Source: a virus. From it: a stretch of 58,620 nt of DNA. Shown here piece by piece: positions 450 through 17,613 of the stretch. The stretch covers positions 1-58,620 of IMG/VR virus record IMGVR_UViG_3300031841_004380. One strand, written 5' to 3'. The notes beneath the pieces were generated by a model, which saw nothing but the letters and a program-made list of their open reading frames with translations, searched no databases and was not told the DNA's origin. Within the stretch, counting starts at the first letter, position 1. Every line of letters starts with the position of its first letter. The position numbers were made by a program, and so were the translations under genes.

Positions 450-587
450 ATGGCACAACCATTAAGCAGAGAATTATTATTAAGGCGTGGAAGTTGTTGT
501 GGAGGTAACTGCAAGAACTGTCCGTATATCCCTAAAGGTAAACGTGGAGCAACAAATGTTAAGAAGAAATTTCCTACAGATAGGTAG
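450..587 (+). CDS. DUF5522-like Cys-rich mini-protein
   Basis: A 45-residue protein starts directly after the previous stop codon. Its centre reads RRGSCCGGNCKNCPY, which matches the CCG-x-C-xx-CPY signature that I associate with the DUF5522 family of very small cysteine proteins in bacteria, a likely metal-binding knuckle. The tail is Lys/Arg-rich. The last 32 nt overlap, in another frame, the start of the DUF1501 gene at 556, so the two are probably co-translated. Family assignment is from motif recognition; the biochemical role is unknown. Confidence 0.6.
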   Translation: MAQPLSRELLLRRGSCCGGNCKNCPYIPKGKRGATNVKKKFPTDR

Positions 588-1830
588 CATAGGTGGAATA
601 GGATTAACTTTAGGTAATTACAATATACTAAAGGCACAAGATCAAGTATCAGATAATGCTAAAGCAAAGTCTGTTATCTATATCTATTTACCGGGAGGTT
701 TTGCTGCCCAAGAAACATTTGATCCTAAACCATTAGCACCAGTTGAATATCGTGGGCCTATGAATTCTATACCCACAAAAATTCCCGGTGTTAGATTTAA
801 TGAACACTTAAAAAAGACTGCGGATATTGCAGATAAAATAACTGTAATTAGATCAATGACTCATGGTGAAACTGCCCATGAAAGAGGTGAGCATGATATG
901 CTTACTGGATGGAAACCCTCTGCCGCATTAGTATATCCTAGTATTGGTTCTGTTGTTAGCCATGAACTAGGTGTGCGTAATGATATTCCACCATATATTG
1001 CTATTCCAAAAATACCTAACGAATGGGCTGACGCTGGATATTTAAGCCAAGCATATAATCCATTTAGTATTGGTAGCAGTCCAGAGGATGCAAACTTTAA
1101 AGTGAGAGATTTAACTCTGCCCAATGGTGTTACCAGAGAAAGATTTGAGGATAGAAAACGATTACTCAATATTGTGAACAACAAATTCATACAGAGTAAT
1201 GAGAGTAGTGATAATCTCAGGGCGATGAATTCTTTTTATGATCATTCTTTTTCCATGCTGGACAATAAAAGTTCTACAGAAGCATTTGATCTAAATAAAG
1301 AGAACGATAAGACCAAAGACATTTATGGTAGAAATGCTGCTGGTATGAGAATGTTGCTGGCAAGAAGATTGGTAGAGGCTGGCAGTAGATTTGTGACGTT
1401 AAGTTATGGTGGCTGGGATATGCACCAGAATATTGAAAACGGCATAAAAAATAATGTTCCAGCATTAGATCAAGCATTTGCTGCACTAATTAATGATCTA
1501 GATGATAGAGGTATGTTGGATAGTACATTGGTTATGATAGGTACTGAATTTGGCAGAACTCCTAAGATCAATCCAGATTCAGGCCGAGATCATTGGCCCA
1601 AGGCTTTTAGTATAGTTATGGCTGGCGGTGGAGTTAAAAGAGGAATGGTTTATGGGGAGACTAATGCTATTGCAGATGATATTTTTGATAATCCAGTAAA
1701 ACCAGAGGATTGGGGTGCTACTGTATTTAATTTAGTCGGCATAGATTATGAGAATGTTCTTTATGCTCCCGGTGATAGACCAGTGAAGATTATGGATGGG
1801 GGAAAACCGATTAAGGACATTATTTCTTAA
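556..1830 (+). CDS. DUF1501 family protein with Tat signal
   Basis: This 424-residue protein belongs to the DUF1501 family, related to the alkaline phosphatase/sulfatase fold and greatly expanded in Planctomycetota. Seen directly are a twin-arginine signal at the N-terminus (LRRNFLQ followed by a glycine-rich hydrophobic stretch), GGWDMH at 285-290, EFGRTP at 331-336 and GRDHWP at 343-348, all in the usual order. Length is normal, so it looks intact. The start at 556 is chosen because it begins exactly at the Tat signal and has GGAG 6 nt upstream; the frame is open further 5'. It would be exported folded. Its substrate is unknown, and carriage by a phage is unusual. Confidence 0.88.
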   Translation: MLRRNFLQIGSIGGIGLTLGNYNILKAQDQVSDNAKAKSVIYIYLPGGFAAQETFDPKPLAPVEYRGPMNSIPTKIPGVRFNEHLKKTADIADKITVIRSMTHGETAHERGEHDMLTGWKPSAALVYPSIGSVVSHELGVRNDIPPYIAIPKIPNEWADAGYLSQAYNPFSIGSSPEDANFKVRDLTLPNGVTRERFEDRKRLLNIVNNKFIQSNESSDNLRAMNSFYDHSFSMLDNKSSTEAFDLNKENDKTKDIYGRNAAGMRMLLARRLVEAGSRFVTLSYGGWDMHQNIENGIKNNVPALDQAFAALINDLDDRGMLDSTLVMIGTEFGRTPKINPDSGRDHWPKAFSIVMAGGGVKRGMVYGETNAIADDIFDNPVKPEDWGATVFNLVGIDYENVLYAPGDRPVKIMDGGKPIKDIIS

Positions 1831-5745: not shown

Positions 5746-5959
5746 AGCATTACAAAGCAAATATCAAGCCAGAATAGATGAAGCAATAGCCACAATAGAA
5801 TTATATCTTAATAATGCTGTTGGAGTTGGAGAACATCCAGACATTTTAGATGTGCTTGATAGGTATGTTAGTATACTTGAAACTAATACCAGTAAGCTGC
5901 AAGCATTAAACTCTATTCTTCAACCACCAACTAATAATGAGCCAAAAAGCGGTAACTGA
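5729..5959 (+). CDS. small helical phage protein
   Basis: The 76-residue product is a helical hairpin: a basic first helix, the conserved-looking loop VGVGEHPDILD, and a second helix. Proteins with a VGVGEHPD loop recur in T4-like phages as far as I recall, without a known role. A GGAG site lies just upstream, and the gene overlaps the sulfotransferase start by 23 nt. Confidence 0.65.
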   Translation: MNRFARALQSKYQARIDEAIATIELYLNNAVGVGEHPDILDVLDRYVSILETNTSKLQALNSILQPPTNNEPKSGN

Positions 5960-6755
5960 TTTTTTTATTTTCTGCCCACCTAAATGTGGCACTACTTCTT
6001 TATTTCATATGCTTTCTCAACATCCTGAGTTGAGTCCATGTAATATTAAAGAGCCTCATTTTTTCTCTATAAACTATACTAATGGTTTAGAGTGGTATAA
6101 TAATCTATTTGAAAAAAATGATAAACAAAAATTTGAAGCCAGTACATCGTATTTTAGTAACGAGAGGGCGACAAAAAGACTAAAAAAGAATCTGGATAAA
6201 CAACCCAAACTTATTATTGTACTTAGAAATCCAGTAGAACGGTTTATATCTTTATATAAGCATTTCAGAGCAGTCTATAGAATTGTCAATGATGAGAGTC
6301 TATACGATAATTTTTTATCGTCAATAAGCTGGGCAGAACAATTTGTTGAGAATAACTTCTCTGGACTGGGACTATCTATACAACAGTGGCAAAATAAAGA
6401 GTATGATATAAATGATACACATTTTAAAATGTTTGAAAAGGAGATAAATTGTGGTATGTATTATGAACATATTTGCAACTTATCAGATAATTTAAACTGC
6501 TCTATAATGCTACTTGAATACAGTAAATTCAAGCAAGACAACATTAATACTATCCATACCATAGAAAACTTTTTAGGTATAAGTAATTTTAATGGTTACG
6601 AAAAACTAGAGTATAATCAATCTTCTGATTGGGAACAATTTGTAGATGTTAAATCAGATATCACTAAAGACTTTACTGATAATCTACACGAGCTTTATCG
6701 TTCTTCAAATACTCAGCTAGAAAAATTTCTTAACACAAAACTAAATTGGGACTAA
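5937..6755 (+). CDS. sulfotransferase
   Basis: This 272-residue protein has the two PAPS-binding motifs of the sulfotransferase superfamily: the 5'-phosphosulfate loop PPKCGTTS at 14-21, and the 3'-phosphate motif LRNPVERFIS around 96-105, with Arg97 and Ser105 in the classical R-x7-S spacing. Length and order fit a full-length bacterial-type enzyme moving sulfate from PAPS to a glycan or other acceptor. A second, shorter relative is encoded at 12016. In a phage it could modify a virion glycan or a host surface molecule; the acceptor cannot be read from sequence. Confidence 0.85.
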   Translation: MSQKAVTDFFIFCPPKCGTTSLFHMLSQHPELSPCNIKEPHFFSINYTNGLEWYNNLFEKNDKQKFEASTSYFSNERATKRLKKNLDKQPKLIIVLRNPVERFISLYKHFRAVYRIVNDESLYDNFLSSISWAEQFVENNFSGLGLSIQQWQNKEYDINDTHFKMFEKEINCGMYYEHICNLSDNLNCSIMLLEYSKFKQDNINTIHTIENFLGISNFNGYEKLEYNQSSDWEQFVDVKSDITKDFTDNLHELYRSSNTQLEKFLNTKLNWD

Positions 6756-8822: not shown

Positions 8823-8866
8823 TTGACTTTCCAGCCCAATCTGCTATAATACATTAACGTCGTTAA
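8823..8866 (+). promoter_or_regulatory. promoter with palindromic operator at the start site
   Basis: TTGACT at 8823-8828 and TATAAT at 8845-8850 are spaced by 16 nt, without the CCGATA element. The perfect palindrome TTAACGTCGTTAA at 8854-8866 covers the expected transcription start, the position of a repressor operator. A GTGGC/GCCAC pair further downstream could form a 5'-UTR hairpin. The next gene encodes a small HTH-like protein, so autoregulation is possible. Confidence 0.65.
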
Positions 8867-8932: not shown

Positions 8933-9160
8933 ATGACTAAGCAGGATCGTGTTATTAATTATCTTTGTAAGGGAAAGACTCTTAGCCAAGATAGTGCATC
9001 AAGTATGTTTGATGTTGGTAATTTGAGGGCTACTATTAGCGATATCAAGCCAGCCCTACATTCTCAGGGATATTCTGTCACCAGAACTACTGGCCGACAG
9101 GGTGAAACCCGCTATGGTGCAATCGCCCGTAAGACTACTCGCAAGTCTAGCAGGCGATAA
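8933..9160 (+). CDS. small helix-turn-helix protein
   Basis: The 75-residue basic protein looks like a winged or tri-helical DNA-binding domain: KQDRVINYLCKGKTLSQDSA is helix 1 and part of helix 2, SMFDVGNLRATISDIKPAL is a recognition-type helix, and a beta wing with TRTTGRQGETRYGAI follows. Similar small HTH proteins are common in T4-like phages. The start at 8933 is supported by a GAAAGGG site about 10 nt upstream. The palindrome at its own promoter makes it a candidate autoregulator. Confidence 0.7.
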   Translation: MTKQDRVINYLCKGKTLSQDSASSMFDVGNLRATISDIKPALHSQGYSVTRTTGRQGETRYGAIARKTTRKSSRR

Positions 9161-9227
9161 TCAATTTACAGGTTTTAGTGGCCCCATTAAAGCCAAGGGT
9201 ATATCTCACAATCTAGATATAGATAGT

Positions 9228-9566
9228 ATGGCTTCCTATCCCACTAAAATTTGTAGAATCTGTAATCTTGAAAAAAGCACCGACGATTTCTTTCTTGATA
9301 GAGGTAAACTATATTCTAAGTGTAGAGATTGTTTTAAGACCTATCAAGATCAATTAAAAACTGTTAAGAAAAATGCACCAGCTAAACCAGAAAGATGCGA
9401 GTGCTGCAATAAAATACCTAACAAATGGGCCTGCGACCATTATCCTAATACTACTAAGTTTAGAGGTTGGGTTTGCTGGGAATGTAATAACGCTGCTGGA
9501 TCTGTAGGCGATTCATATGAAGGTGCAGTTAAACTTTTGAATTATTTATATCAGAGAAAAATATGA
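9228..9566 (+). CDS. recombination endonuclease VII-like (His-Me finger) nuclease
   Basis: The 112-residue protein has two zinc knuckles (CRIC...CRDC and CECC...CWEC) and the EndoVII core: an acidic-His segment CDHYP, then FRGWVCWECNNAAGSVGDS followed by helix residues EGAVKLLNYL. The family includes T4 gp49, which resolves branched DNA, and many smaller phage homing-type nucleases of this size. No good ribosome-binding site is visible, but 9228 is the only ATG that keeps the whole domain. The size suggests a mobile or auxiliary nuclease rather than full-length gp49. Confidence 0.85.
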   Translation: MASYPTKICRICNLEKSTDDFFLDRGKLYSKCRDCFKTYQDQLKTVKKNAPAKPERCECCNKIPNKWACDHYPNTTKFRGWVCWECNNAAGSVGDSYEGAVKLLNYLYQRKI

Positions 9567-9736
9567 ATAAATTACATCCCATAACCTATATTGTTGCGGG
9601 TTTACTTGGTGTAGCGTGTTCTGTAATTCAAGTGCAATGTAGACAAATAGAACAACTTAAAAAAGAAAAATATCCAGTAATTATAAGACGGGGTATAGAG
9701 TATTACGAGAAAGCACCAAAAGATAGAGTAATATAA
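9563..9736 (+). CDS. small single-pass membrane protein, 57 aa
   Basis: The ATG overlaps the nuclease stop (ATGA). Residues about 6-25 form a hydrophobic helix with an Ala-Cys motif, followed by a basic region and an acidic C-terminus. The stop is immediately followed by the first base of the tmRNA gene. Confidence 0.6.
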   Translation: MNKLHPITYIVAGLLGVACSVIQVQCRQIEQLKKEKYPVIIRRGIEYYEKAPKDRVI

Positions 9737-10091
9737 GGGGGCGTAAAGGTTTCGACAGGTTTGGAAGATTTATATTTAGCAAGTAGTGGTTGATCGACAG
9801 GCCACTTAAAAAGTCGATTAAAAACGCTTTAACTGGCGAAACTCAGTTAGCACTCGCCGCTTAGTATAGCGGTGACAATCTTCGGAAGCGATGAAGGTAG
9901 CGTCCAAAAGATTGTTGTAAAATCCTTCGGCTGTTAAACTCGTTCAACGGGGGTTTAACCTGAGATACAGTTGATCGGAAAGAAGAATGTTGCTTGTTCT
10001 TTATTCTTTCTTAAAACTTATGAGCAAGATAAACTTGTAGAAGGTATAATGAACTAAATACTGGACAGGGGTTCGACTCCCCTCGCCTCCA
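9737..10091 (+). ncRNA. ssrA: tmRNA (ssrA)
   Basis: The 5' end GGGGGCG pairs with CGCCTCC at 10084-10090 to form a 7-bp acceptor stem with one G-U pair; the discriminator is A and CCA is not encoded. A T-arm with loop TTCGACT precedes the 3' acceptor strand. The 5' part contains the conserved tmRNA start GGTTTCGAC. The tag frame ends at TAG 9862-9864 and reads back to GCT at 9826 as ALTGETQLALAA, ending in the usual LAA degron; the exact resume codon is uncertain. At about 355 nt it has normal length. tmRNA frees stalled ribosomes and tags nascent proteins for degradation. Confidence 0.93.
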
Positions 10092-10108
10092 CTTAATTTT
10101 GCCGAAAA

Positions 10109-10143: not shown

Positions 10144-10404
10144 ATGGCAATCAAAAAATCAGTTGAGCATCTCCAAGAAAATAATATGGGCTATTGGGAG
10201 CATCTACTATTTGCTTCTGGTCATGGAATTAGGTGCATTAAAGCGGGAGTGCTTTTAATTATTCATTCTATTATCCCCGCTTTTTTTCCTAAAACCGGAT
10301 CAATTCTTGTCAACAAATTAAACAAAAGTTTTACAGACCATAATGATTGGCTTGATCTAAAAAATAGAATGGAAAAATTTCAAAACATATATAAATCACC
10401 ATGA
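10144..10404 (+). CDS. DUF6356-like membrane protein
   Basis: The 86-residue protein carries the segment YWEHLLFASGHGIRCIKAG followed by LIIHSIIPAFFP, the Glu-His, Gly-His-Gly and His-xx-(I/L)-P pattern that I associate with DUF6356. This is a small membrane-associated family frequent in phages and proteobacteria. One or two hydrophobic helices lie at about residues 22-48. It starts 53 nt after the tmRNA and overlaps the next gene by ATGA. Role unknown. Confidence 0.7.
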   Translation: MAIKKSVEHLQENNMGYWEHLLFASGHGIRCIKAGVLLIIHSIIPAFFPKTGSILVNKLNKSFTDHNDWLDLKNRMEKFQNIYKSP

Positions 10405-10696: not shown

Positions 10697-12019
10697 ATGC
10701 AAAGCAATTTTGAATATGTTTGGGGCATGGTGCGTGATCTTAGGGCTACAAGCAGCACTATTGATAAACAGAGCATTATTGAGGACTATTGTTTTGTAGA
10801 CGAAAAGTGTTCTGGCGTAAGGCAAGAAGTTGCAGAATTTACCCAGAATATTCTTCTATATACATACCACCCTCTCTGGCAATATAATGTCACTAGCGAT
10901 AATCTCAAGAAGAAATCTCATCTCAGAGGAAAAGATTTCGGAGATATTTTCTTTCTGCTGAACGCATTGAAAGATCGTCAGATTACTGGTCACGATGCCA
11001 TTGGTGCGGTCAATACGTTTGTGGAAAAATTTCCAGAATACGAAGAACTCATTCACTGTATCATCGACAAGGATTTAAAGACTAGGGCTGGCGACAAGAT
11101 TATCAACAAGGCAATCCCTAATCTTATCCCAGAATTTAGTGTTGCTCTGGCAGATAAATATGATCCGAATATTGTAGCCTGGAAGGATGGTTGGTATGTA
11201 TCTCGCAAACTTGATGGTGTTAGATGTATTTGTATTGTTGATACTGGCGGCAATATTTCATTCTACTCCAGAACAGGAAAACAATTTACTACATTGGGTG
11301 TTGTGGCTGATGGTATTGCAAGCCTCGGTTTATCTAATATTGTTCTTGACGGGGAACTATGTCTAATTGATGAAGATGGTAATGAAGATTTTCAAGGCAT
11401 TATGAAACAACTTCGCAAGAAGGATCATACAATCGAGAATCCCTCATATAAAGTATTTGACTGCTTAACTCTTGCGGAATTCAATACCAAGAAAGGATCG
11501 GCAGATTTATCTAAGCGTCTTTATATGCTTAAAACCTTACTGAAAGATAATGAGTGTCCATGCTTGAGTATTCTAGAACAAGAAAAAGTTAGGGATGATG
11601 AACACTTCCAAGAGTGGATCACCAAAAGCAACAAGGTTGGATGGGAAGGTGTAATGCTTCGTAAAAACGCCCCATATAAAGGCAAGCGGTCTAAAGACCT
11701 TTTAAAATATAAAGCCTTCCACGATGATGAATACGAGGTTATAGGGGTAGAGAATGGGCCTTTTAGGTATGTGAAAGATGGTGCAGAGTGTGAGGAAGAT
11801 ATGCTCAGTTGTGTTTATATTCAACACAAAGGACATGATGTTAGGGTTGGTAGTGGATTTAGTATAGACCAAAGAAAAGATTTCTATAAGAATCCAGACA
11901 AAATCAAGGGTATGGTAATTCAAGTGCAATATTTTGAAGAAACCAAAAACCAAGACGGCGGGATTTCATTAAGGTTTCCTACATTTAAGTATCTTTATGG
12001 GGAAGCTAGAGTGACATGA
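10697..12019 (+). CDS. ATP-dependent DNA ligase
   Basis: This 440-residue protein contains the nucleotidyltransferase motifs in order: motif I SRKLDGVR with the adenylated Lys171, motif III FYSRTGK, the DGEL segment, motif IV WEGVMLR and motif V LLKYK, followed by an OB-fold C-terminal region. The N-terminal 140 residues resemble the helical DNA-binding domain of T4-like ligases. It seals nicks using ATP during phage replication and repair. It starts 36 nt after a promoter and overlaps the second sulfotransferase gene by four bases. Confidence 0.93.
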   Translation: MQSNFEYVWGMVRDLRATSSTIDKQSIIEDYCFVDEKCSGVRQEVAEFTQNILLYTYHPLWQYNVTSDNLKKKSHLRGKDFGDIFFLLNALKDRQITGHDAIGAVNTFVEKFPEYEELIHCIIDKDLKTRAGDKIINKAIPNLIPEFSVALADKYDPNIVAWKDGWYVSRKLDGVRCICIVDTGGNISFYSRTGKQFTTLGVVADGIASLGLSNIVLDGELCLIDEDGNEDFQGIMKQLRKKDHTIENPSYKVFDCLTLAEFNTKKGSADLSKRLYMLKTLLKDNECPCLSILEQEKVRDDEHFQEWITKSNKVGWEGVMLRKNAPYKGKRSKDLLKYKAFHDDEYEVIGVENGPFRYVKDGAECEEDMLSCVYIQHKGHDVRVGSGFSIDQRKDFYKNPDKIKGMVIQVQYFEETKNQDGGISLRFPTFKYLYGEARVT

Positions 12020-12690
12020 GCATAAAAAACTTCAAAATTTACGGCGAACGCAATAGCGGCACAAATTTGTTGCAAGCTATTCTTACAGGCAATTCTTTTT
12101 ATCACAAACAAGAAAACCCAGCTTTTAGTATATCTCAGTCAAAAAATTACGGTTGGAAACATTGGTTTGGTTTTAATAGTGAAGACATTAAGAAAGAGGG
12201 GCAAAATACTTTGTTCTTGGGTATTGTGCGTGATCCTTATGATTGGATTATCGCTCTTTTCAAGAAGAAACATCATGTTCCTCCAATTAATTATTCAATA
12301 GACAATTTCCTACTTGGAGAATGGTATTCTATTGACCATAAAAAAAGCTCACCTACTTATGGTCGAGAAGTTTTAGGTGATCGCAACTGGAAAACTGGTG
12401 AAAGATATAAAAATATTTTTGAACTTAGAAAGACTAAGCTAGAATATTTGCTTGATAAGATGCCACAATTGGCTCAATACTATAAATTGATACGATATGA
12501 AGACTTATGCGTAAACCATAATGAATTTTTAGAAGAAATATCTAATACCTATAATTTATCGTTTAATAAAAACTATCTTAAACCCAAACCAAAGCAGCAT
12601 CATCCCGTACAACCCAAAATAGCCAAAATAATCAATGACAATATTGATTGGGGTATGGAGCAACAAGTTGGCTACAGTAAACGCTCTTGA
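12016..12690 (+). CDS. P-loop sulfotransferase-like protein
   Basis: The 224-residue protein has a P-loop-like GERNSGTNLLQ near residues 10-20, corresponding to the PAPS 5'-phosphosulfate loop, and GIVRDPYDWIIALFKKKHH about 60 residues later, corresponding to the 3'-phosphate motif. The usual serine of that motif is replaced, so activity is less certain than for the enzyme at 5937. From memory, the GERNSGTN type is common in marine phages and glycan loci. The start overlaps the ligase stop as ATGA. Confidence 0.75.
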   Translation: MSIKNFKIYGERNSGTNLLQAILTGNSFYHKQENPAFSISQSKNYGWKHWFGFNSEDIKKEGQNTLFLGIVRDPYDWIIALFKKKHHVPPINYSIDNFLLGEWYSIDHKKSSPTYGREVLGDRNWKTGERYKNIFELRKTKLEYLLDKMPQLAQYYKLIRYEDLCVNHNEFLEEISNTYNLSFNKNYLKPKPKQHHPVQPKIAKIINDNIDWGMEQQVGYSKRS

Positions 12691-14009: not shown

Positions 14010-14324
14010 ATGAAATTTTACGCAACACTACTGTTAGTACTACTAATACCTAATACACTATTAGCAAATGACCTTATGGTTTTCGGTGCTGATTGGTGCG
14101 GTGCTTGTGTTAAGTTAAAGAATTTTATTCAAAAAAATCCACAGGTAGTAGATAAATATTCTATTGACTTTGTTGATATAGATAAACATCCAGAAGTAAA
14201 AAAGAAGCTAGGTATAACTAAAATACCGCTGTCTATAATCTTTAATGAAGATGGTACGATTAAATCCAAGATACTTGGTTATGATAGCCGTTCTTATACT
14301 CAGTGGTTAAAAGAAAATGAATAA
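14010..14324 (+). CDS. secreted thioredoxin-like protein
   Basis: Residues 1-19 form a Sec signal peptide (MKFYATLLLVLLIPNTLLA). The mature domain is a thioredoxin fold with the active site DWCGAC (Cys30, Cys33) and a cis-Pro segment KIPLS. It would work in the periplasm on disulfides, perhaps of the Cys-rich proteins encoded elsewhere in the window. ATG at 14010 is preferred because it begins the signal peptide. The frame is open to an ATG at 13965, and a 36-codon frame (13943-14053) with a better ribosome-binding site overlaps it, so expression may be coupled. Confidence 0.78.
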   Translation: MKFYATLLLVLLIPNTLLANDLMVFGADWCGACVKLKNFIQKNPQVVDKYSIDFVDIDKHPEVKKKLGITKIPLSIIFNEDGTIKSKILGYDSRSYTQWLKENE

Positions 14325-14511
14325 TATCTACAAAAATAAAGACAAAGGCATGATCTTTGGTGTTTGTGCAGGACTATCTGACAGTAGTGGTATTGATGTA
14401 ACGCTACTAAGAGTAGGATTCATAACTGCTGCTATATTTAGCGGCAGTATCTTTTTCTGGGTTTATCTGGGATTGGGTATTTTTATGCCATTACCGCCCA
14501 ATAAAAACTAA
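14317..14511 (+). CDS. PspC-domain membrane protein
   Basis: The 64-residue protein is essentially a single PspC domain: a short polar start, GVCAGLSDSSGIDVTLLRVGF, then a hydrophobic helix and a short C-terminal tail. Cellular PspC proteins take part in phage-shock envelope-stress sensing and toxin-antitoxin-like control. A phage version could dampen host stress signalling, but this is inference. It overlaps the thioredoxin gene by 8 nt. Confidence 0.85.
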   Translation: MNNIYKNKDKGMIFGVCAGLSDSSGIDVTLLRVGFITAAIFSGSIFFWVYLGLGIFMPLPPNKN

Positions 14512-14880: not shown

Positions 14881-14954
14881 GGGGCTGTAGTCCAACAGGC
14901 AGAGACACAAAACTTAAAATTTTGAAAGTGTGCGTTCGAATCGCATCAGCCCTA
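14881..14954 (+). tRNA. tRNA, anticodon UAA (Leu), short variable loop
   Basis: The cloverleaf folds cleanly: acceptor GGGGCTG/CAGCCCT, D-stem GTC/GAC with GG in the loop, anticodon stem CAAAA/TTTTG with loop CTTAAAA (anticodon TAA), variable loop AAAGT, and T-arm GTGCG/CGCAT with loop TTCGAAT. CCA is not encoded. The anticodon reads UUA (Leu), but the variable loop has only five bases whereas bacterial tRNA-Leu normally has a long arm, so aminoacylation identity is open. Its 3' end overlaps the stop codon of the minus-strand HNH gene. Confidence 0.88.
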
Positions 14955-15407
14955 CTTTTTATTTTTAGCCCTATAATTATCAGTTAATGCGTGACAGTTA
15001 GGGCATAATAAAGATAAGTTATCTAGATTATTATTTGAATTATTTCCATCTATGTGATGTAGTTCTAAAGGTATTTTTTTGTCTAGCCACATAGTGCGAT
15101 TACAATTGCAGCATTTATGACTAAAAATTTGATCTTTTAGCAGTCTGTTTTTAAGTTTCCAACTTTGTATAGTTTGTTTGTTTGATAAATAATCTTCCAA
15201 AGATCTTTTTGGTCCAATTTTTTTACCTTTGTTCCATGCTTTATGATGAAAATGAGAGATATCAATATTGTATTCTTTGATTTTCTTTTTAATACAAGCA
15301 TAATTTCCACCGGCTTCTTTGAGTCCTAATTTATTTAAGCATTGACGATAACTGGAACTTTCACGACATATATTTTCAATTAATTCTTTGGTATATTTGA
15401 TTCTCAT
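14952..15407 (-). CDS. HNH endonuclease (homing type)
   Basis: This is the only clear minus-strand gene in the window. The 151-residue protein has an N-terminal helical DNA-binding region and a C-terminal HNH domain: CCNC, then LELHHIDGNNSNNNLDNLSLLCPNC, with the catalytic His pair and zinc-binding CxxC pairs. The start at 15407 follows AAGGAGA on the minus strand. The stop lies within the last bases of the tRNA. Orientation and position mark it as a probable mobile, free-standing homing endonuclease. Confidence 0.9.
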   Translation of the reverse strand: MRIKYTKELIENICRESSSYRQCLNKLGLKEAGGNYACIKKKIKEYNIDISHFHHKAWNKGKKIGPKRSLEDYLSNKQTIQSWKLKNRLLKDQIFSHKCCNCNRTMWLDKKIPLELHHIDGNNSNNNLDNLSLLCPNCHALTDNYRAKNKK

Positions 15408-16240: not shown

Positions 16241-17209
16241 ATGAAAAACCATAAAGGCTTTACTTTAATCGAACTGCTCGTTGTTATTGCTATTATTGGT
16301 GTTTTAGTTGGACTTTTATTACCAGCGGTTCAATCAGCCAGAGAATCTGCAAGAAGAATGAGTTGTTCAAATAATCTAAAACAACAGGGCTTGGCAATGC
16401 ACAGTTGTTTAGATGCTAGAAAGTATTTCCCCGGTGCGGCATATACGGTTGACTCAGCCACAGCACCTACTAAAGCTAATCCAGCAGGTAAAGAGCATAG
16501 CTGGAGAGCATTTGTTGTAGCCTTTATGGAAGAAAGCAGTATTGCCAATCAGTATGATTTCGATAAAAACTGGTGGGAGAATACAGCAGCAGTTGCTCAA
16601 CAGCCTAGCATTTTTAAGTGTCCAACAGCATTACCTCCTAATGGTGGTTATGCAAGTATTGATGGGCCAACTAGAGATAGCGATAGTGCTGCTCCAAGTT
16701 TAGACCCAGATAATTTTGGGTATACTGATTACGAAGTATTTACTGGTGTTAAAGATAAGGTATTTCCAAACACTAATAATGTATATCAGAATAAGGGGCC
16801 AGTTTGTGATGGTGTTCTTGTAAAAGATGCAGAAACTAGAGTTGCACAAATTACTGATGGACTTTCCCATTCATTATTAATTGTAGAATGTGCTTCTCGT
16901 CCAGATACTTATAAAGCATCTAATGGTAAGAATTCTGCTACTGGCGACACTAATCAGTGTATTTCATGGGCAGACTCTTTAGGGCCGTTTAAGTTGCACG
17001 GTATTGACACAAACGGTGACAAGTGCAATAATTGCGGTGTGATGCCATTCAACGGCATTAACGATGGCGAAGCATATAGTTTTCATCCTAGCGTTATGAA
17101 CGCTGCATTTGCTGATGGTTCCACAAGAACTCTTGCAGAAAATATTGATCTATATGTTATGGCTGCTATTATCACCAGAGCAGACGGTCAACAGACAGGA
17201 GAATATTGA
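16241..17209 (+). CDS. DUF1559 pseudopilin (planctomycete type)
   Basis: The 322-residue protein starts with a type IV prepilin-like leader: MKNHKG, then FTLIE with Glu5 of the mature protein, then a hydrophobic helix. The C-terminus has the H-X9-DG signature (His282, Asp292-Gly293) that defines DUF1559 pseudopilin-like proteins, a family greatly expanded in Planctomycetota. It is full length with no frameshift. It would be processed by a host prepilin peptidase and inserted in the envelope. The next two genes encode a lipoprotein and a secreted enzyme, so this is a complete envelope cassette in a phage context. Confidence 0.93.
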
Positions 17210-17211
17210 TT

Positions 17212-17613
17212 ATGAGAACCATTATTGTAATCTTTACTTTTCTGTCGATACTATTGGCTGGATGTGGTTCTGGTAAGACAGTTCCTAAACCAGTAGCAAA
17301 TATAGAGGGTAAAGTTCTACTACCTAAAGGAAAACCCCTAGAAGGTGGAAGAATTCTACTCAAAGCAAAAGGTGCTAGTGGAACCGTCTTGGCTGATATT
17401 GATAAGGATGGTAGTTTTGAAGTAGACAGTAATGAAGTAGTACTTCAAGGCGACTACGAAGTGTATTTGGTATTCAGATACAATTCAGCAACGGAACGTA
17501 AACTTATTAGATATGTTCCAGCAAAATATCGTGAAATTGGAGAAGGTGATTCTGACATTTCTATTACGTTAGGTGAAGATAATCAGAACATTACTGTAAA
17601 ATTGAAAGCATAA
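17212..17613 (+). CDS. planctomycete-type lipoprotein, carboxypeptidase-regulatory-like domain
   Basis: ATG at 17212 is preferred over TTG at 17206 because AGGAGA at 17197-17202 is correctly spaced. Residues 1-18 form a lipoprotein signal with lipobox LAGC (Cys18). The mature part is a beta-sandwich with EGKVLLPKGKPLEGGRILL, then DKDGSF and YVPAKYR near the end, matching the small lipoproteins that usually sit beside DUF1559 genes in planctomycetes. It is probably anchored in the outer or cytoplasmic membrane next to the pseudopilin. The binding partner is unknown. Confidence 0.85.
   Translation: MRTIIVIFTFLSILLAGCGSGKTVPKPVANIEGKVLLPKGKPLEGGRILLKAKGASGTVLADIDKDGSFEVDSNEVVLQGDYEVYLVFRYNSATERKLIRYVPAKYREIGEGDSDISITLGEDNQNITVKLKA

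Follow-up and report, generated by a model that had tools for sequence, protein, structure and literature searches.

The DNA analyzed here is a linear virus record from IMG/VR, 58,620 bases long (36.6% G+C), referred to below at its full length as the window. It carries a gene for tmRNA (ssrA), the RNA which frees stuck bacterial ribosomes and tags unfinished proteins for destruction. ARAGORN called a tmRNA at 9737-10092 (+) with the tag GETQLALAA and its stop, and the Rfam family RF00023 matched 9737-10094 over the entire model (1-374). The match scored 133.6 bits (E = 4.2e-52), far above the gathering score of 47. Only tmRNA and tRNA families of Rfam reached threshold in the window. An earlier note on this DNA had claimed a complete phage tmRNA at 9737-10091, with an acceptor stem, a T-arm and a tag ending in LALAA. 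This is confirmed by the ARAGORN call and the whole-model match; all three elements are present, and the acceptor stem and T stem covary. The end at 10091 is exact for the encoded part, as this is the position of the discriminator A, and CCA is not encoded. Phage genes had been placed one and 52 nt away, and we found that the upstream open reading frame (ATG at 9563) ends at 9736, directly abutting the tmRNA gene, while the downstream one starts at 10144, 52 nt past 10091. The features are collected in Table 1.

Table 1. Features of the tmRNA gene and its surroundings, in positions of the window.
Feature	Position	Strand	Evidence
DUF1501 gene	487-1830		
Endonuclease VII-like gene, upstream neighbour	9102-9566	+	PF02945, phrog_2633; 90 tmRNA loci, all same strand
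One-piece tmRNA (ssrA), encoded mature part without CCA	9737-10091	+	ARAGORN, Rfam RF00023, 67 distinct full-length sequences with relatives
Acceptor stem 5' strand GGGGGCG, G3 paired with U	9737-9743	+	G3-U 67/67, stem 99.6% paired
PK1 (9785-9791/9800-9806; 9792-9798/9813-9819)	9785-9819	+	97-99% paired, compensatory changes
Tag frame: resume codon GGC 9835-9837, GETQLALAA, TAG 9862-9864	9835-9864	+	ARAGORN; LALAA codon-position test 1/0/78
H5 (9854-9861/9868-9875), tag stop in loop	9854-9875	+	94.6% paired
PK2 (9876-9881/9909-9914; 9884-9886/9903-9905; 9893-9897/9924-9928)	9876-9928	+	93-96% paired, compensatory changes
PK3, whole pseudoknot; stem 1 (9933-9940/9952-9959)	9933-9973	+	Stem 1 92.4% paired, compensatory change in each of its 8 pairs
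PK3 stem 2 (9945-9948/9970-9973)		+	95.6% paired; located by local search
PK4 (9978-9982/10006-10010; 9994-9998/10023-10027)	9978-10027	+	91-92% paired, compensatory changes
T stem-loop (10067-10071/10079-10083), acceptor 3' strand (10084-10090), discriminator A (10091)	10067-10091	+	T stem 98.5% paired, 5/5 compensatory
DUF6356 gene, downstream neighbour	10144-10404	+	PF19883; 61 loci, all same strand
ATP-dependent DNA ligase gene, conserved neighbour	10697-12019	+	phrog_114, PF01068; 100 loci, same strand
tRNA-Leu(UAA)	14881-14955	+	ARAGORN and Rfam
DUF1559 gene	16241-17209		

Farther along the window we identified genes for rIIA, rIIB and a clamp loader. In the larger open reading frames TTA accounted for 194 of 730 leucine codons and ATA for 227 of 674 isoleucine codons, and the commonest tRNAs at related loci were tRNA-Ile with the anticodon UAU and tRNA-Leu(UAA). 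This codon use and tRNA set are fitting for an AT-rich phage. A scan for promoters gave no excess over shuffled sequences (15 vs 14.5); one strong extended -10 match at 8823-8850, a candidate only, lies upstream of the stretch from the endonuclease VII gene to the tmRNA. The profile of the T4-type major capsid protein (PF07068) gave 0 matches, and the control was equally silent, which makes this search uninformative. Among other genes, a PspC-domain gene of 64 residues lies at 14317-14511, and 39 related loci have relatives of it close to the tmRNA; it brings a stress-response domain with no known role here onto a phage. The proteins encoded at 5937-6755 and 12016-12690 appear by eye to be putative sulfotransferases, with no PHROG match.

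Since a search with the tag pattern selects for the tag, a tag-independent search was run with the DNA ligase as bait. It returned 347 relatives, and 80 of them were kept. From the ligase relatives and the tag matches, ARAGORN and a profile search gave 67 distinct full-length phage tmRNAs. The ligase gene was near the tmRNA, always on the same strand, in 100 of 117 tmRNA loci (some overlap on one contig). RF00023 scored above the cut-off in 13 of 13 large records (the window and 12 related ones, 58-224 kb, possibly incomplete), a rate which is biased because the records were drawn from loci selected by tmRNA or ligase. The tmRNA was not found in some ligase-bearing contigs, and these contigs are fragments. 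Single metagenomic contigs can be chimeric, and a host tmRNA might have been joined to a phage contig by contamination or mis-assembly. However, the same gene and neighbourhood recur in contigs of many datasets, up to 224 kb, so that independent assemblies refute this explanation and we give it practically no probability.

The 67 sequences were aligned (mean identity 73%, minimum 45%). The helices match the known architecture of tmRNA, namely acceptor, T stem, H2, H5 and PK1-PK4. We found 95.9% of the cells paired and changes on both sides in 56 of the 75 pairs, against 38-49% paired and 13-25 pairs with both-side changes in a control with partners slid by 1-3 columns; the helices were partly picked on the same alignment, which gives them an advantage over this control. 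The G3-U pair, the identity pair of alanyl-tRNA synthetase, and the discriminator A were invariant (67/67). Judging from the pattern of changes in this alignment, the RNA fold is under selection.

We then compared the tags. The tag frame is open in the window and, read codon by codon, is conserved as a peptide in 63 relatives. Where the standard frame applies (63 sequences), letters within LALAA that differ from the consensus numbered 1 at the first, 0 at the second and 78 at the third codon position; the corresponding counts for the three codons before LALAA were 21, 31 and 23. As judged by these codon positions, the LALAA tail is conserved as a peptide, not as RNA; its variation is almost entirely at third positions, and therefore the tag peptide itself is under selection. 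Tags at loci selected by the ligase begin with GETQ, GTNQ, GNTQ, GANQ, GSHQ and similar residues and continue with LALAA (FALAA once), so residues 2-3 vary freely and the tail barely changes. One group has the tag ADTSVLALAA, and the most divergent tags are GEVTLALAA or GEVNLALAA (these three tags were read by eye). For five loci (L070, L073, L074, L075 and L137) ARAGORN reported a 26-residue tag. We rejected it as probably wrong, because the conserved frame, as seen in L070, has the resume codon GCC and reads ADTSVLALAA.

SmpB was not found in the 13 phage records, neither in the window nor in the 12 related large contigs, which may be incomplete; the control matched in 10 bacteria. The search for smpB proposed by the earlier note thus came out negative for the phage, and reliance on host SmpB is most likely. 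A phage apparently lacking SmpB might also use the RNA as a decoy, which would compete with host tmRNA for host SmpB, occupy SmpB and ribosomes and so inhibit host trans-translation. Such a role has been suggested for RNAs consisting of the tRNA-like domain only, such as that of mycobacteriophage DS6A, and a similar molecule is a strong inhibitor of tmRNA (PMC4131195). Yet a decoy would not need a tag, and here purifying selection acts on the tag peptide (1/0/78), while the tag stop codon is retained along with the pseudoknots. Conservation of the tail at the peptide level argues that the tag is translated and speaks against a pure decoy, which we consider very unlikely.

The degenerate tag pattern was present in 57 viral contigs, compared with 1 contig among 11.3 million GTDB contigs. 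This single match (L002) is a Chloroflexota MAG's own ssrA adjoining smpB, and we rejected it as a relative of the phage gene; its similarity to the phage model is weak (29 bits), so the shared tag was read as convergence. Since the exact tag occurs in only one GTDB contig, the hosts, if they are in the GTDB collection, would be without exactly this tag. Such a distribution, together with the strong conservation of the tail within the clade, might suggest a working tmRNA with a tag unlike that of the host, which sends its products to another protease or adaptor, or away from the host adaptor. If true, it would mean that the phage controls protein turnover instead of only rescuing ribosomes. 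However, many bacteria have tags that end in LALAA or are 9 residues long, and so do most of the Chloroflexota tags that we read. Short tags are ordinary, as all but one of these 27 have 8-10 residues. The free variation of the phage tag at residues 2 and 3 also speaks against such retargeting, which we regard as unlikely.

We also considered how long the gene has resided in these phages. Identity of the tmRNAs was moderately correlated with identity of the ligases (Spearman coefficient 0.42, against 0.25 for the best of 300 permutations). That tmRNA identity follows ligase identity is consistent with vertical inheritance and long residence in phages. A divergent case is seen in two related records, L178 (1501-1852) and L179, where the tmRNA scored only 84.5 bits without a call by ARAGORN, its T loop lacks the usual TTCGA motif, and the tag is GEVNLALAA. 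This tmRNA may be decaying or specialised; the low score and altered T loop may point to a decay of function in part of the clade.

The ssrA gene is a common and well-known integration site for phages. A temperate phage could therefore have taken a host ssrA by imprecise excision, and such an origin was proposed for another phage tmRNA (PMC9004378). We looked for traces of this process. Tyrosine integrase was found in 0 of the 13 phage records (the control matched in all 14 genomes), the 3' end of the tmRNA was not repeated elsewhere in the window, and the same internal neighbours were present in about 100 loci. We consider a remnant of an integration site very unlikely. The conserved gene order and the failure to find an integrase, in records which may be incomplete, point to a resident phage tmRNA and not to a prophage copy of an att site; a single ancient capture of that type may have been the origin of the tmRNA.

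Two gene families bear on the host. DUF1559 matched only three records in the plasmid collection, all from Planctomycetes, and was present in 3 of the 13 phage records and in 0 of the 14 control genomes. DUF1501 was found in 5 of the 13 phage records, and also in Caulobacter, Deinobacterium and other bacteria. Genes of the DUF1501 kind are frequent in Planctomycetes. On the basis of these two families, of which DUF1501 is not confined to Planctomycetes, the host is probably a planctomycete. The planctomycete link drawn by the earlier note is thus plausible, as DUF1559 and DUF1501 occur in the window and in several related records. With regard to the genes themselves, DUF1501, which is unusual as phage cargo, is also carried by records G002, G006, G009 and G011, and in 16 loci its match starts at a median of approximately 350 bases after the tmRNA. 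The stretch 16241-17613 holds the gene for the DUF1559 protein, whose N-terminal methylation motif is type IV pilin-like, and then a small lipoprotein-like gene; the two make up a planctomycete-type pair, here carried on a phage.

Phages with tmRNA had been described in the earlier note as rare but known, and published counts bear this out, as tmRNA was found in 402 of 18,146 phage genomes, about 2% (PMC9004378). Full tmRNAs are known in mycobacteriophages Bxz1, Cali, Catera and Wildcat and in Bacillus phage G (PMC4131195). By description, the window tmRNA is likewise full and phage-encoded, but these are other phages of other hosts. The Methylophilales phage Melnitz and pelagimyophages have a two-piece tmRNA (PMC9004378). 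These too are resident tmRNAs of large aquatic phages. In Melnitz, however, the RNA is permuted, in two pieces and preceded by a glutamine riboswitch, whereas the window tmRNA is in one piece. A tmRNA of Bradyrhizobium elkanii phages was interpreted as serving ribosome rescue (PMC12656738); it is likened to ours by description, and its host is unrelated. Compared with bacterial ssrA (RF00023), the gene shares the tRNA-like domain with G3-U, four pseudoknots, a resume codon, the LALAA tag and a stop in the H5 loop; it differs in being borne by a phage in which smpB was not found, and in not encoding CCA. Phage tmRNA is therefore an established kind of gene, and the lineage presented here appears to be new. 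Within the part of the literature that we searched, the clade appears to be undescribed. The nearest sequenced phages by DNA gave only a 36-base match to one unannotated record, and we found no phage isolate of the clade, so its function is informed by no isolate.

Taken together, we consider it likely that the locus encodes a functional one-piece tmRNA, resident in a large clade of uncultivated phages which probably infect Planctomycetes. As SmpB was not found in the phage records, we infer that the host supplies SmpB, alanyl-tRNA synthetase, CCA addition and proteolysis. The phage tmRNA would be processed by the host, completed with CCA by the host CCA-adding enzyme and alanylated by the host alanyl-tRNA synthetase. 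The charged RNA would bind host SmpB and enter ribosomes stalled on broken mRNAs. The tag would then be added to the unfinished protein and the ribosome freed at the tag stop, and the tagged product would be degraded by host proteases of the ClpXP type. The most likely benefit would be extra rescue capacity in infection, when many truncated mRNAs would arise; the host tmRNA gene may be silenced or lost at that time. The earlier note had proposed that the tmRNA might offset ribosome stalling on the AT-rich phage genes or stand in for host tmRNA at shut-off, and both proposals are conjectural.

In summary, these results add a large phage clade to the carriers of their own ribosome-rescue RNA. 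Selection on both the fold and the tag peptide, as seen in 67 sequences, argues that the phage gains from tagging itself, beyond what a tRNA-like decoy would give. The clade may thus serve as a sequence-level lead on the reasons why phages keep tmRNA.
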